Assembly (NCBI GenBank): GCA_019637895.1
Contig: JAHBUU010000008.1
Location: 1 to 36,828 of the forward strand
Direction: 5' to 3'
Length of the DNA stretch: 36,828 nt
DNA from: Pseudobdellovibrionaceae bacterium
GTDB lineage: Bacteria; Bdellovibrionota; Bdellovibrionia; Bdellovibrionales; Bdellovibrionaceae
How positions within the stretch are numbered: the first letter of the stretch is position 1; the number at the start of each line of letters is the position of its first letter. Positions 2-32,974 of the stretch are shown here, one piece after another. The translations under genes and the position numbers were made by a program. Below the pieces are notes generated by a model. It did not search any database. It was not told the DNA's origin and saw only the letters and a list, made by a program, of their open reading frames with translations.

Positions 2-304
2 GAGGCGACTTTTGCCAAAGCCCTGCCGACGGATATCGGGACCCCCCTGTACGAACAACTGAAGTTCAAACTGGATCGTCGCACGCTGAGTTCAGAAGCC
101 TTGATCGAAAGAGGACGGCGCATGGTCGCCGATGGGGTCGCAACGCCAGATATTTTCCGAATCTTGATCGAACTCCTCGCCAAAACCGGCAAAGAGACTC
201 TGGCCGAGAGCCTGATCGCCAGGGCCGTTGAGTCACATCCCGACCTCAATCTCGAACTTTATGAAATTCTTCAGACGAATTTGAAGCCGTCAGACGGCGC
301 ATGA
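2..304 (+). CDS. C-terminal part of an unidentified protein
   Basis: The reading frame is open from the first bases of the window to a TGA at 302-304, so only the last ~100 residues are visible and the start lies upstream. The visible part is helical in character, with leucine and alanine spaced as in TPR-like repeats (residues around RILIELLAKTGKETLAESL). I do not recognise a family. It is convergent with zur and overlaps its 3' end by about 15 bases. The in-frame TTG at 101 is not needed as a start because the frame continues upstream. No function can be assigned from this fragment. Confidence 0.6.
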   Translation, partial: EATFAKALPTDIGTPLYEQLKFKLDRRTLSSEALIERGRRMVADGVATPDIFRILIELLAKTGKETLAESLIARAVESHPDLNLELYEILQTNLKPSDGA

Positions 305-730
305 TGTGCAGATACCGCGTAAAAAAAGCGGCTGATTGTCTCCGAAAAAACGAAATCCCCCCAGAGCCGACATCAAGGTATCGATTTTCTGGTGATCCTT
401 CACTTCCTGATGACGATGGCACTTGAGGCAGAAAAACAAAAGATGCGGATGGGCTTCGCACTCGTGAGAGCAGCACACGTAGCTATTCACGTCCACTTCG
501 TGAACGAGGCCCGCCGCTTTCAACAGATTCAGATTTCGATAGACGGAAACCCGGTCCACGTTTTCGAAAACCGTACCCAAGGTCTGAATCAATTCACCTT
601 GGCTCAAGGGACCCTTCTCGCTCATGAGCGCGCAGACGATCTCTCTCTTCAAAGGAGTCTTTCTCATGGAATGTTTGTCCATGAGGCGTTCCGCTTTTTC
701 CACGAGCTTCATTCGTTCTTGATTCGTCAT
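290..730 (-). CDS. zur: Fur-family transcriptional regulator, probably zinc-responsive Zur
   Basis: The 146-aa protein has an N-terminal winged helix (residues ~10-80, with the DNA-reading segment VSVYRNLNLLKAAGLVHEV) followed by a metal-rich dimerisation domain. Cysteines C101/C104 and C141/C144 form the structural zinc site. Their spacing (CxxC, 40 residues, CxxC) equals that of E. coli Zur C103/C106/C143/C146. The stretch HEVDVNSYVCC resembles the regulatory site of Zur, where an NSYV segment precedes a metal-binding Cys, and this favours Zur over Fur or PerR. The ATG at 728-730 was chosen because AAGGAGA lies 7 bases upstream. A longer upstream extension would only overlap the preceding gene. 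It overlaps the stop of the upstream thioredoxin-like gene as ATGA, so the two are translationally coupled. The neighbouring His-rich proteins and TonB receptor support a zinc role. A peroxide or iron sensor is the main alternative. Confidence 0.8.
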   Translation of the reverse strand: MTNQERMKLVEKAERLMDKHSMRKTPLKREIVCALMSEKGPLSQGELIQTLGTVFENVDRVSVYRNLNLLKAAGLVHEVDVNSYVCCSHECEAHPHLLFFCLKCHRHQEVKDHQKIDTLMSALGGFRFFGDNQPLFLRGICTSCAV

Positions 731-1155
731 GGCTGCATCTCCTTGATCTCTTTGCAGGACAGCGGCCCCACCTTGAGTCCCTTCCGACTCTGAGTGGTCG
801 GTGTGGCCATCAGAAATGAAAAATCTTTCCGGTTCTTCATCAGATACACCTGGGACCCCTCGGGCAAAGACCTGGCCCATCTTTTCGCACGGGACGCCGG
901 ATCCGTCGAAACATATCGCAGGCTCGCAGTGATCTCAGGGCCACACTCGCGCAAAGCCCGCAGGTAGCCCTTGCAGGGCACACAGTCCTCCTCGGCATAA
1001 ATCAACAGCAGCCCCTGAGAGAGCAGCTCCTCAGAAGCTGTCACCGCCCCGCTCCGAAGCTCAAAAAGCACCCCGGCTGACGCCGAGAAACTCGCCAAAG
1101 AACAAAGAGTTAACAAAAGCAGGGGGACCCCCTGACGGACCTTCCTCAAAAGCAT
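727..1155 (-). CDS. secreted thioredoxin-like protein with CVPC motif
   Basis: The 142-aa protein starts with a signal peptide (hydrophobic core PLLLLTLCSLASF, likely cut after ASA near residue 27). A short thioredoxin-like segment follows: strand LLLIYAEED, then C58-V-P-C61, then a helix, as in periplasmic redox proteins. Two more cysteines lie at 71 and 134. It is much shorter than a classical DsbA and lacks a visible cis-Pro signature that I can place with certainty, although a proline occurs in the MATPT segment near 119. It is the first gene of the minus-strand transcript, and its stop overlaps the zur start by four bases. Its location suggests handling of cysteines in the metal-binding exported proteins encoded divergently, which also carry two conserved cysteines each. 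That role is inference. Confidence 0.65.
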   Translation of the reverse strand: MLLRKVRQGVPLLLLTLCSLASFSASAGVLFELRSGAVTASEELLSQGLLLIYAEEDCVPCKGYLRALRECGPEITASLRYVSTDPASRAKRWARSLPEGSQVYLMKNRKDFSFLMATPTTQSRKGLKVGPLSCKEIKEMQP

Positions 1156-1178
1156 TCCCTTTCATTAACGCAAATCCC

Positions 1179-1201
1179 TTGCAACTGCAACTATGTTGCA
1201 A
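1179..1201. promoter_or_regulatory. palindrome in the divergent promoter, candidate Zur operator
   Basis: The 72-bp gap between the divergent starts at 1155 and 1228 contains a perfect inverted repeat, TGCAAC-TAT-GTTGCA (1186-1200). It is extended by an extra half-site TTGCAAC at 1179-1185, which itself pairs with GTTGCAA at 1195-1201. It is the only clear dyad in this gap and is placed to control both the thioredoxin-zur arm and the His-rich/receptor arm. Half-site spacing is typical of Fur-family boxes, but the sequence is not the enterobacterial Zur consensus, so the assignment rests on context. Confidence 0.5.
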
Positions 1202-1227
1202 TATTTAGCTCTCCTCGGAGGTATTCA

Positions 1228-1674
1228 ATGATTCGTTTCCTAATCGCTTTCTCTTTGCTGGCCCTGAGCCCCTTTGCCCTGGCCAATGACCACGACCATG
1301 ACGACCATGATTTTCCAGAAGGCACCCTGATCGCCCTCGAAGGCCAGGACGCCGTCACCAAGAAAGAGTGCGCTCTGTTCGTGACTGACCTGGGAACCGT
1401 GGATGGTCGATTCTACGCCAAGGTCATCACCAGCTATATGCACGACCACGATCAACCGCAGGAAATTCTGGTCGGTGTTTCGCCAGAACGTCCAGACGTG
1501 CTGGTTGGAACCGGCGACAACGGCAAAGATCAAATCGCGATCTTCCTCGAATCCACCGAAGCCGACCTGCAAACGGCGCGCTCTTTCAATCTGAAGTGGT
1601 GGCACGTCAATCACTTCCACAGCTATCGCTGCGTGAACCTGAAGGTTCATGACCACGATCACGACGAACACTAA
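1228..1674 (+). CDS. secreted histidine-rich protein with KWWHVNH motif (paralog 1), probable metal-binding
   Basis: The 148-aa protein has a signal peptide (residues 1-19, cut after FALA) followed at once by an acidic His cluster NDHDHDDHD. The body contains HDHD at 72-75, a conserved block KWWHVNH at 123-129 and a C-terminal tail HDHDHDEH (141-148). Cysteines 48 and 135 are also conserved in the next gene's product and could form a disulfide. The alternating His/Asp clusters are typical of low-affinity zinc or nickel buffering regions. I do not recognise the family. The start has GGAGG (1217-1221) seven bases upstream of ATG. It is the first gene of a plus-strand operon with its paralog, a TonB receptor and TonB, divergent from zur. 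A periplasmic metal chaperone, or a partner on the periplasmic face of the receptor, is the best inference. Confidence 0.85.
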   Translation: MIRFLIAFSLLALSPFALANDHDHDDHDFPEGTLIALEGQDAVTKKECALFVTDLGTVDGRFYAKVITSYMHDHDQPQEILVGVSPERPDVLVGTGDNGKDQIAIFLESTEADLQTARSFNLKWWHVNHFHSYRCVNLKVHDHDHDEH

Positions 1675-1684
1675 GGAGAACCCG

Positions 1685-2077
1685 ATGCGCATCGCTCTTT
1701 TCTTGCTCGCCTTTTTTCCCGTCCTTTCGGCTCTGGGTGATCCATCCCGTGCCCTGATGATTTTCGAAGGAATCGATACGACCTCGAAAGAGCGCTGCCA
1801 TCTGTTCGTTTTGGCTGTCCAACAAAACTCGTCGGGACTGCAGAGCCTGGTCGTCACCACGGGGTATGGCCATGATCATGACCGCCCCCAGGCCCTGACG
1901 TTGGTTCCCCAGTCCTCACAGGTCTTCATGGGTTCCGCCAACGGAGGCCAGGATCAACTGGCCCTCTTTCTGGGAACACCATTCGATCTAAGATCCGCGC
2001 GGAATTTCAATTTCAAGTGGTGGCATGTGAATCATGCCCACACCTTCCAGTGCGCTCGTTTGCGCCAGATCAAGTGA
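1685..2077 (+). CDS. secreted KWWHVNH-motif protein (paralog 2)
   Basis: The 130-aa protein is clearly a tandem duplicate of the preceding one. Shared blocks in the same order are EG.D...K..C.LFV, HDHD.PQ (63-66), G.DQ.A.FL, AR.FN.KWWHVNH (111-117) and a final Cys at 123. It has its own signal peptide (about 17 residues) but lacks the N- and C-terminal His tails of paralog 1, so it keeps only the core HDHD and KWWHVNH motifs. The ATG at 1685 follows AAGGAGA, which directly abuts the upstream stop. A longer reading frame from 1649 was rejected because it overlaps paralog 1 and would destroy the signal peptide. The split into a His-tailed and an untailed copy suggests division of labour, for instance buffering versus specific binding. 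That is inference. Confidence 0.85.
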   Translation: MRIALFLLAFFPVLSALGDPSRALMIFEGIDTTSKERCHLFVLAVQQNSSGLQSLVVTTGYGHDHDRPQALTLVPQSSQVFMGSANGGQDQLALFLGTPFDLRSARNFNFKWWHVNHAHTFQCARLRQIK

Positions 2078-2087
2078 TCCGTTCCGC

Positions 2088-4214
2088 ATGAAAAACGCCT
2101 TTTTTGCTCTCAGCTTTCTGTTGTCGCTTTCCTTCGCCCACGGCCAGGAAACGACGGATCTCGTTCCTGAAATCGTCGTCTCGGAAAAACCCGAGGCGGA
2201 TCTCAGAATCAAAAAGTACGAGATCAATCGCATCGAGACTTTGAAACCGAAAGCCATCGAGAAAAAACAGGCGCAAACTTTCGCTCAAGCCATCGACAAC
2301 GAAAAAGGCATCGACACGCAAATATCCTGCGCCTTTTGCGGAGCCAAACGCATCACGATCAACGGCTTGAAGGGCGAACACACGACGATCCTCATCGACG
2401 GCTTGCCTCTGCACTCGACCGTTTCCGGTTTCTATGGGGTCGAAGCGATCCCTTTGGGTGGAGTCGATGCCATCGATATTTATCGAGGAGCCGGAGCAGC
2501 CCTCGCGGCTCCCGAGTCCATCGGTGGCGCCATCAATATCGTGACCCGTGAAATCGTCGCCAACGAACGTGAAATCAATCTCTCCCTGGCCGACGACGGC
2601 CAAAGGAATGTTTCCGCCCTGGTGACTCATAAAATTTCTGAACGAACCGGCGTTCTGCTCGGCGTTCAGTATGGCCAGATGTTCCCTTTGGATCTTGATC
2701 ACAATGGAATCGCCGAACTGCCCAGACAGACGACCTCCAGCGCCCTGGCCAAGATCTCTCACCGCCTGAATGAAACCGACGAAGTCAGCTTGCGACTCAG
2801 TTATGGAAAGCTGAAAACCATCGGTGGCACGATGTCGGAAACTCGCGTCGATGACGTTGTTCCTTCGGTTGCTCGTTCGGATGATTTTCAGGATCGCGAT
2901 GTGCGCAAAAAGTTCATCGGAGACGAAAGAAAAATCACCGACAATGTCGGGCTCGATCGTTTCGAGATCGCGGGCCTCTATCGCCGTCAACTCGACGAGA
3001 ACTCAAGCTTGAAGCTGAGCCTGGGTGGTGCCTATCAGGATCAGCGTGCGATCTACTCGCATGGTTACGACTATGACAATTTAGACCGGCTCTGGGTCGG
3101 CCTCGTCGAATACCAAAGAGCTCTGAATGACTCGCATCTGTTGACGGTGGGATTGGACTCGAAAAACCAGGATATGGATTCGACGTCGGACAGTCTGTAT
3201 CGTCAGCGGGGGCTTGCCCAGGATGACCTCAGATATCGCTCGATCGGCGGCTATCTGCAGGACACCTGGGTGATCGACGACGCCAACGAACTGTCGGCTG
3301 TTCTGCGCATCGATCACATCCAAACCCGTTGGCTTGATCTGGATAAAACTCTTGATCGCTCCGTGATCGCGCCACGCCTTTTGTACAAGCATATTCACAA
3401 TGAGGTCCTGACTTCGCGACTGGGTCTGGGCCTTGGCTATCGCTCACCGCTGACTTTGTTTGAAAGCATGCACGGGACCGACCACGAAGGCTTCTTGATC
3501 GACATCGATCGGCTCGAAACCGCACAGTCCCTCGTTTACTCGCTGGCCGGCCAAAGGCAGGATGACTTTTTCGAGGCGGGCCTTCATGTAACTCGACTCG
3601 AAAATATGGCCTACGGGGTGGATCAGGCGATCATTGCGGCACCGACCCTGTTCAAAAATGCGAACGAGGCCTATACCCTTTCGACCTACGATCTGAGCTA
3701 TGGCCGTCGTTTGACACCGAACTGGACAATGGAAGGAATTCTCGAGGTCTTCGACTTTCCTGCGGGCTATAAAGAAAAGCTTCCCGTCGCCGCCATCGAA
3801 AAGCGCCTGTCGGTGACTTCGGACCTCGAACTGGGGCCATGGACACTGTCACAGCGATTGAATGTGGTGGGCGAACGGGATCTGTCGGCCTACGGCTATG
3901 ACGATCACTACAATATCATCTTTCTGGATGAGGACGTTTCCAGTCCCACCTTCGATCAGCTGTTCCCCGAGTCCCAAAAGCGCCAAAAGTCGCCGACCTA
4001 CTTCACCGTGGATCTGACCTTCAGTCGGACCCTGACTGAATCTCTTTCACTCGGGTTGTCGGTTCTGAACCTCTTCGACTATACTCAGACCGGCGCGGGC
4101 GATAGCCCCACGACCTGGCATCTCCATGGGAAAGAATATCACCTCGATAACTTTCACATCTGGGGGCCCTTACGAGGACGACAGGTCTTCGTGAGTTTGA
4201 AAGGACTGTTTTGA
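2088..4214 (+). CDS. TonB-dependent outer-membrane receptor, probable metal (zinc) or metallophore receptor
   Basis: The 708-aa protein has a signal peptide (1-19) and a possible TonB box near residues 28-33 (EIVVSE). A plug domain (about 45-160) carries the typical segments ITINGLKGEHTTILIDGLPL and IDIYRGAGAALAAPESIGGA. A long beta-barrel follows, ending in an aromatic residue (LKGLF), as expected for insertion by the Bam machinery. The plug contains an unusual C81-A-F-C84 pair just before the ligand-facing loop. The ATG at 2088 gives a clean signal peptide. It lacks a strong ribosome-binding site but lies 10 bases after the upstream stop, suggesting coupled translation. It is followed directly by tonB. 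Gene order points to uptake of zinc or a zinc complex. A nickel, cobalt, copper or haem ligand cannot be excluded. Confidence 0.9.
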   Translation: MKNAFFALSFLLSLSFAHGQETTDLVPEIVVSEKPEADLRIKKYEINRIETLKPKAIEKKQAQTFAQAIDNEKGIDTQISCAFCGAKRITINGLKGEHTTILIDGLPLHSTVSGFYGVEAIPLGGVDAIDIYRGAGAALAAPESIGGAINIVTREIVANEREINLSLADDGQRNVSALVTHKISERTGVLLGVQYGQMFPLDLDHNGIAELPRQTTSSALAKISHRLNETDEVSLRLSYGKLKTIGGTMSETRVDDVVPSVARSDDFQDRDVRKKFIGDERKITDNVGLDRFEIAGLYRRQLDENSSLKLSLGGAYQDQRAIYSHGYDYDNLDRLWVGLVEYQRALNDSHLLTVGLDSKNQDMDSTSDSLYRQRGLAQDDLRYRSIGGYLQDTWVIDDANELSAVLRIDHIQTRWLDLDKTLDRSVIAPRLLYKHIHNEVLTSRLGLGLGYRSPLTLFESMHGTDHEGFLIDIDRLETAQSLVYSLAGQRQDDFFEAGLHVTRLENMAYGVDQAIIAAPTLFKNANEAYTLSTYDLSYGRRLTPNWTMEGILEVFDFPAGYKEKLPVAAIEKRLSVTSDLELGPWTLSQRLNVVGERDLSAYGYDDHYNIIFLDEDVSSPTFDQLFPESQKRQKSPTYFTVDLTFSRTLTESLSLGLSVLNLFDYTQTGAGDSPTTWHLHGKEYHLDNFHIWGPLRGRQVFVSLKGLF

Positions 4215-4852
4215 TGAAGGACCCTCGAATCGCACCGACAGCAGCTTGGCTTTTCAGCCTCGTTCTTCATGCGGTTCTTTTCGGTCTGCTGTTGTTGCCG
4301 TCGATGAAATCATCCTCTGATGAAATCAATATTGATCTCATTTCGCTTCACGAGGTGGGCACTTCGGCATCAGTTTCCTCTCCGGCCGTTCGGAAAAAAC
4401 AAGTGGCTCTGCCGAAACCCGAAACAGCAGCGGATGCCTCATCACCTGTCGAAAAAGCAGCTCCGAACGAAACGACGTCCGTTCTCGCTCCCGACAGCCA
4501 AGCCCTCGAAGGAGACTCGGACCTCAGCAGCACCGTCGCCGGCCAAGCCCCCAGAAACTCCAAAGAAAGATACCTGGCTGGACTGAGAGACCAAATCGCC
4601 AGACATCAAATCTATCCGCAAGCTTCACGATCATTCCAAGAAGAAGGCATGGTCAAAATCCGCCTCACCCTCGACCGAAGCGGCTCGTTACTCAAAGTCG
4701 AACTCGTCGAATCCTCAGGCCACAAACGCCTCAACGACGCCGCCATCCGAGCCGCCGCCAAAGCCGCCCCCTACTCAACCTTCCCCGAAGACATCTCTTT
4801 CCAAACCTGGAAAATCCTAGTCCCCGTCCGCTTCACTCTCGCACAAAAATAA
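4214..4852 (+). CDS. tonB: TonB-family energy transducer
   Basis: The 212-aa protein has one N-terminal membrane segment (about residues 12-30, WLFSLVLHAVLFGLLLLP). A periplasmic linker rich in Ser/Ala/Glu follows, rather than the usual Pro-Lys-Pro repeats. The C-terminal domain (about 110-210) has the family pattern GMVKIRLTLDRSGSLLKVELVESSG..LNDAAIRAAAKAAPY. It transmits inner-membrane proton-motive force from an ExbB/ExbD complex, not encoded here, to the receptor's TonB box. The ATG at 4214 overlaps the receptor's TGA by one base (TGATG), indicating coupled translation and a dedicated pairing. A TTG at 4211 is a possible alternative start one codon earlier. Being the last gene of the operon, it ends just before a region with a very large hairpin. 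Confidence 0.9.
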   Translation: MKDPRIAPTAAWLFSLVLHAVLFGLLLLPSMKSSSDEINIDLISLHEVGTSASVSSPAVRKKQVALPKPETAADASSPVEKAAPNETTSVLAPDSQALEGDSDLSSTVAGQAPRNSKERYLAGLRDQIARHQIYPQASRSFQEEGMVKIRLTLDRSGSLLKVELVESSGHKRLNDAAIRAAAKAAPYSTFPEDISFQTWKILVPVRFTLAQK

Positions 4853-4920: not shown

Positions 4921-5094
4921 ACAACCTGCAAGACCTCCAGGTTTTGAATCGGGGGCCGGACAGGCCATCCGGGATGCGAGTTTTGGATTGGCGCGAGCTT
5001 GCGCACGCAAGCGAGTGCCAAGACAAGTGTCTGAGACAGCCCGGTTGGCCTGTTCGGCCCCCGATTCAAAACCGGGTAAGGGCCTGCAGATGTT
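4921..5094. repeat. large nested inverted repeat (possible REP/MITE-like element, structured RNA or bidirectional terminator)
   Basis: Two 34-base arms (4940-4973 and 5040-5073) are complementary except for one G-T pair and one mismatch. Each arm begins or ends with the GGTTTTGAATC/GATTCAAAACC block next to a G/C-rich GGGGGCC/GGCCCCC block. Outside these arms, weaker complementarity continues (CAACCTGCA at 4922-4930 with TGCAGATGTTG at 5086-5096). Inside the loop a second hairpin is formed by TTGGC/GCCAA (4988-4992, 5017-5021) and CTTGCG/CGCAAG (4998-5003, 5006-5011), and AGACA/TGTCT (5021-5031) could form a third small stem. It sits between the convergent ends of tonB and a methyltransferase gene. 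No coding potential is evident. There is no T-run of the kind expected of a simple intrinsic terminator. Confidence 0.75.

Positions 5095-32897: not shown

Positions 32898-32974
<77 letters not shown>

Follow-up and report, generated by a model that had tools for sequence, protein, structure and literature searches.

A probable Zur-controlled, TonB-driven zinc-uptake module with a family of exported partner proteins in Bdellovibrionota

Six genes of a Pseudobdellovibrionaceae bacterium, at positions 290-4852 of the window (the whole 36,828-nucleotide stretch analysed, one contig, C214, of a 2.97-Mb draft assembly), form two divergent, tightly packed transcripts flanking one palindrome (Table 1). 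They very probably constitute a module for zinc uptake under zinc starvation, controlled by Zur, driven by TonB and equipped with exported partner proteins, here called H1 and H2. From the gene order, the conserved motifs, the linkage and the shared DNA box, all read from the sequence, we infer the repression, the transported ion and the roles of H1, H2 and a thioredoxin-fold protein; zinc as the ion is supported indirectly. Zur-controlled, TonB-driven zinc uptake is the preferred reading because it explains the regulator, the box, the co-regulation with znu genes, the CobW neighbors and the receptor together.

Table 1. Predicted features of the cassette, in window coordinates
Feature	Coordinates	Strand	Basis
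Predicted Zur, FUR-family repressor of zinc uptake, 146 aa	290..730	-	Pfam, NCBIfam, structures, orthologs
Exported thioredoxin-fold CVPC protein (pTFP-like)	727..1155	-	Family profile; signal peptide by inspection
Putative Zur box TGCAACTATGTTGCA in the divergent promoter region	1186..1200	.	Sequence pattern, recurrence in relatives
H1, exported partner protein	1228..1674	+	HDHD tails, KWWHVNHFH hairpin (residues 123-131), invariant C48/C135
H2, paralog of H1 without His-rich tails	1685..2077	+	Hairpin and cysteines as in H1
TonB-dependent receptor (TBDR)	2088..4214	+	Plug and beta-barrel domains
Dedicated TonB	4214..4852	+	TonB_C; N-terminal hydrophobic helix by inspection

The minus-strand transcript is a trx-zur pair and the plus-strand transcript an H1-H2-receptor-tonB operon, with 72 bases of divergent region (1156-1227) between them. 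The layout proposed in the initial annotation, two divergent transcripts around one palindrome, agrees with the six reading frames and the palindrome itself, and so do its details of close packing: the trx stop overlaps the zur start in an ATGA (730-727), the receptor stop overlaps the tonB start in a TGATG (4212-4216), and the H1-H2 and H2-receptor gaps are 10 bases each. A sigma-70 scan of the divergent region, uninformative in this setting, returned no promoter.

The regulator contains a FUR domain (PF01475, E 1.1e-9, above the Pfam cut-off), and its best NCBIfam model is Zur, at 55 bits and below the model cut-off of 167. Among solved structures, its profile matches the FUR-family regulator 7dh7 best and Escherichia coli Zur (4mtd) at 3e-10. 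When aligned with 4mtd, whose sensor ligands we take to be H77, C88, H96 and E111, the sensor residues of the regulator are H77, C87, H94 and E109; these are invariant in three orthologs, as are the two structural CxxC pairs, C101/C104 and C141/C144. Both the Zur-like character of the protein and its cysteine spacing, as initially claimed, are thus sustained. The genome encodes four FUR-family proteins, and this one has the full Zur sensor set. Its orthologs adjoin the cassette in two other genomes (G022 and G023, E about 1e-78), while in a third (G011) the ortholog (E 3.2e-39) opens a zur-znuC-znuB-znuA operon.

The exact sequence of the palindrome occurs once in the 2.97-Mb assembly. Its relaxed form, TGCAAN5TTGCA, sought by pattern match only, occurs three times, against none for the reversed control: one copy is that of the cassette, a second, the only other intergenic one, lies 5' of znuC-znuB-znuA, and the third falls within a reading frame. 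Across the Bdellovibrionota the box is exact in 19 of 40 cassette promoters and has at most one mismatch in 27 of the 40, which come from related loci and are therefore not 40 independent events; receptor identity between families amounts to only about 33-41%. The best of 59 other permutations of the half-site gave no exact match in the same promoters, and among all other 1024 half-sites none gave more than two. A near-consensus box also lies about 50 bases upstream of the zur-znuCBA operon of G011 (locus L093), and G022 has the run zrgA-box-znuC-znuB-znuA-cobW (L100 1150-5427), with the box just 3' of zrgA (ZrgA match E 1.9e-25, a gene separate from the H family). The box is likewise shared with a znu operon in G001, at a weaker score. 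These observations support TGCAA-N5-TTGCA as a candidate Zur box common to cassettes and znu operons, and, with the operon of G011, they link the regulator at the sequence level to a ZnuABC-type importer. Counted against zinc are four f13 cassettes (L018-L021), which have no good box. In genome-wide scans of relatives, many matches to the pattern lie within reading frames; these were set aside as chance occurrences. A site in G049, before a MarR/OhrR-like gene, looks like that of another regulator.

The neighborhoods of the receptor loci also speak for zinc. A match to the Zur profile lies within the regions of 10 of 40 such loci, six of these being an adjacent trx-zur pair. In G023 (L014 9838-12426), two genes for CobW/COG0523-like GTPases directly follow zur (PF02492 at 9.4e-60 for the first), and CobW-like genes are also found near the cassettes of L070 and L072. 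Zinc as the ligand, offered at first as an inference, gains independent, if indirect, support from the box common to cassettes and znuCBA and from the Zur and CobW neighbors. A ZnuA-family gene was not found in six of the seven cassette-bearing f13/f18 genomes tested (G167, G173, G187, G274, G275 and G290), suggesting that in these genomes another route across the inner membrane is used or that the ion is a different one.

It is improbable, on this evidence, that the module imports manganese or iron and that its FUR-family protein senses another metal. ZnuA relatives include manganese and iron binders, but in the ZnuA of this genome histidine occupies the third ligand position (VSHEAFGYF), which counts against them if the residue at that position is, as we assume, what distinguishes their ligands. 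The regulator belongs to the FUR family, with an intact Zur sensor set, and is not an MntR, and znuCBA carries the same box, which is also found next to zrgA and cobW genes. What also speaks for manganese or iron is the MntR-controlled pair of Stenotrophomonas, a published module that likewise combines a receptor with a CxxC in its plug and a thioredoxin-fold CxxC protein and is induced by combined manganese and iron limitation (PMC13217887).

The receptor has Plug (PF07715, E 1e-14) and beta-barrel (PF00593, E 7.1e-8) domains, and the TonB encoded after it has the C-terminal domain PF03544 (TonB_C, E 6.9e-14), in accordance with the initial description of a TonB receptor with a dedicated TonB; TonB homologs also lie beside the cassettes of relatives. 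The plug carries SCAFCG (C81 and C84), that is, CAFC where an exact CQNC is absent, and CxxCG is present in every intact plug among the 40-odd loci compared. Conserved columns, taken from 16-17 relatives, include H325, H350, H462, H680 and H685, invariant in the 16 complete receptors aligned first, and a C-terminus of the form HxHLDNxHxWGP (HxHLDNFHIWGP in the window). No ZnuD chain is among the 18 PDB matches of the receptor at E <= 0.001, and its AlphaFold2 model, built from four sequences, is too poor (pLDDT 49) to locate a metal site. A sister branch of receptors (L132-L136) has CSIC in the plug and a thioredoxin-like neighbor, without H partner or box; it perhaps serves a different metal. 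Separately, in Parabacteroides distasonis, a small, unrelated His-rich exported protein (L089 4188-4541) precedes a receptor with an NCQNCG plug, a possible parallel arrangement in Bacteroidota.

H1 and H2 share 42% identity over 110 residues (E 6.8e-25) and the KWWHVNH hairpin. Of the initial claim that they are two paralogous His-rich exported proteins, the paralogy stands, while the epithet suits H1 better, as H2 lacks its HDHD tails. Neither protein matches a Pfam, NCBIfam or PDB family. With 20 members of the family compared against Pfam, the best chance match has an E of 0.038, and ZinT and ZrgA are unlisted at E <= 0.1; DUF5130 and other Pfam matches (E 0.04-0.08) were likewise rejected as chance. 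The 20-member alignment reveals invariant C48 and C135 and nearly invariant G39, W124, H126, H129 and H131. In its AlphaFold2 model (pLDDT 84), H1 is a beta-strand protein in which K123-H126 are predicted to end one strand and H129-H131 to start the next, which would place the three histidines on one hairpin. Comparison of folds retrieved only weak lipocalin/avidin-like barrels (best E 0.069), and no fold family is claimed.

A search of 369 genomes of the phylum with the H-family profile gave 20 matches in 18 genomes. All but one of these members lie directly upstream of, or in tandem before, one receptor subfamily, and in the lone exception (G039) the histidine motif has been lost as well. 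As the search used the H profile alone, this linkage is not built in. Together with the Zur and CobW neighbors, the 19-of-20 linkage bears out the earlier expectation that the receptor and His-rich genes would be found near Zur or other metal genes in related genomes. H1 itself, used to search genome contigs, recovered three loci only; among named records with the cassette, the closest (L022) is a metagenome assembly labeled "Bdellovibrio sp." In a receptor-based search, loci without an H match mostly have a longer upstream neighbor, often a lipoprotein, that ends in an H-x(2-3)-H...C pattern of the same type, and several of these give weak but significant scores with the H profile (about 5e-4 to 1e-7). 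H1 and H2 appear to be exported partners of this TonB-receptor subfamily. Among the distant partner proteins, many begin with a lipobox, and three (L117 784-1431, L139 1379-2140 and L141 1595-2407) have long Asp/His-rich tails (DHDHDHDD...).

A variant of the zinc-uptake reading, to which we give somewhat less than even chances, takes H1 and H2 for surface proteins that capture zinc, as a lid or a scavenger, in place of periplasmic chaperones. A lipobox is present in the partner of 12 of 33 relatives examined, implying a membrane anchor there, and the partner gene immediately precedes that of this receptor subfamily and hardly ever occurs apart from it; against this, the signal peptides of H1 and H2 in the window are plain ones that lack a lipobox. 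Dedicated partners encoded beside a TonB receptor are familiar from TbpA/TbpB and SusC/SusD. By this comparison, the H partner resembles TbpB and SusD in its position beside the receptor and in being a lipoprotein in many relatives, but the H proteins are much smaller and no sequence relation was found. ZrgA (PF10986) and ZinT of Zur regulons are also exported, histidine-bearing proteins in a zinc-regulon context, yet the H family matches neither model.

The exported CVPC protein was initially called thioredoxin-like, an assignment that is weak from the single sequence (E 0.016) and becomes firm only with the family profile. The 16 members of the family have invariant C58, C61 and P119; their profile matches disulfide isomerases and thioredoxins at 3.6e-5 and weaker, and individual members match Thioredoxin_2 at up to 1.4e-7. 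A homolog stands beside 16 of the 17 cassettes first compared, the remaining one being truncated where its contig stops. A rival reading would make H1/H2 and the CVPC protein a pair that deals with metal stress or copper and has no more than its regulation in common with the receptor. In its favor, copper handling often involves CxxC thioredoxins and His-rich proteins, and redoxin-like and YceI-like genes occur near the cassettes L023/L024 and L066/L067. We consider this reading very improbable: the linkage to the receptor is near-universal, whereas that to redoxin-like and YceI-like genes is confined to that one branch, and the promoter box is the znu box.

Under the preferred reading of zinc uptake, zinc-loaded Zur would occupy the box and repress both transcripts, including that of zur itself, and zinc scarcity would lift this repression. 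The co-encoded TonB would then power the outer-membrane receptor to bring zinc into the periplasm, from which the separately encoded ZnuCBA, with the same box, would carry it to the cytoplasm. H1 and H2 most likely bind zinc through their three-histidine hairpin (H126, H129 and H131) and may either act as its carriers between the receptor and ZnuA or trap it at the outer membrane. For the CVPC protein, the most likely task is to keep the plug CxxC, or the H-protein disulfide, in its proper redox state. A bolder proposal, that the H proteins make up a novel class of partners for TonB receptors, taking zinc via a three-histidine hairpin, combined with a redox-gated plug CxxC set by the thioredoxin-fold protein, is advanced as a tentative and rather doubtful one. 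The plug-reductase role is carried over by analogy from the manganese module, whose authors suggest it for their thioredoxin-fold protein (PMC13217887).

That module, the TBDR-pTFP pair orf2357-orf2358 of Stenotrophomonas maltophilia, described in 2026 in connection with MntR and manganese/iron limitation, is the closest described system, and its synteny was reported for Lysobacterales, Sphingomonadales and Opitutales, not for Bdellovibrionota (PMC13217887). Both systems pair a plug-CxxC receptor with an exported CxxC protein of the thioredoxin fold, under the control of a metalloregulator. However, the regulator here is of the FUR family and goes with the znu box, whereas there it is MntR and no Zur is described; the H-family partner present here is likewise undescribed there (PMC13217887). 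Zur-regulated receptors as such are known in many bacteria (PMC6103462, PMC4176598). ZnuD of Neisseria (PMC4557270) and ZnuK/ZnuL of Caulobacter (PMC4176598) resemble the present case as Zur-controlled outer-membrane zinc receptors with an ABC importer in the regulon, but the portions of these accounts consulted mention no H or thioredoxin partner, and the Caulobacter Zur sites given there are of the TGTTA..TAACA kind (PMC4176598), as against TGCAAN5TTGCA here. Thus, Zur-regulated receptors were already known, as was, from 2026 and for manganese, the combination of receptor and thioredoxin-fold protein. A partial literature search came upon no account of the H family, the TGCAAN5TTGCA box or the combination seen here, and literature searches found no such zinc-uptake system for Bdellovibrionota. 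The present analysis defines a putative Zur box and zinc-uptake cassette, both recurring across the phylum, for a group known for its predatory bacteria, and it provides a clear setting for a protein family that had no name. It also indicates that the receptor/thioredoxin pairing reported for manganese exists under zinc-type control too, so that the need of a metal receptor for an exported thioredoxin of its own becomes a testable question.

Two further features of the window lie outside the cassette. Shortly after tonB, positions 4925-5085 form an extended inverted repeat with nearly perfect arms, whose RNA folds at -105.6 kcal/mol (z -11). The genome contains 21 matches to it, the window's own copy among them, and several stand at contig ends; it is a hairpin element repeated between genes, possibly of the MITE or REP-like kind. 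A tRNA gene is found by Rfam at 32898-32971.
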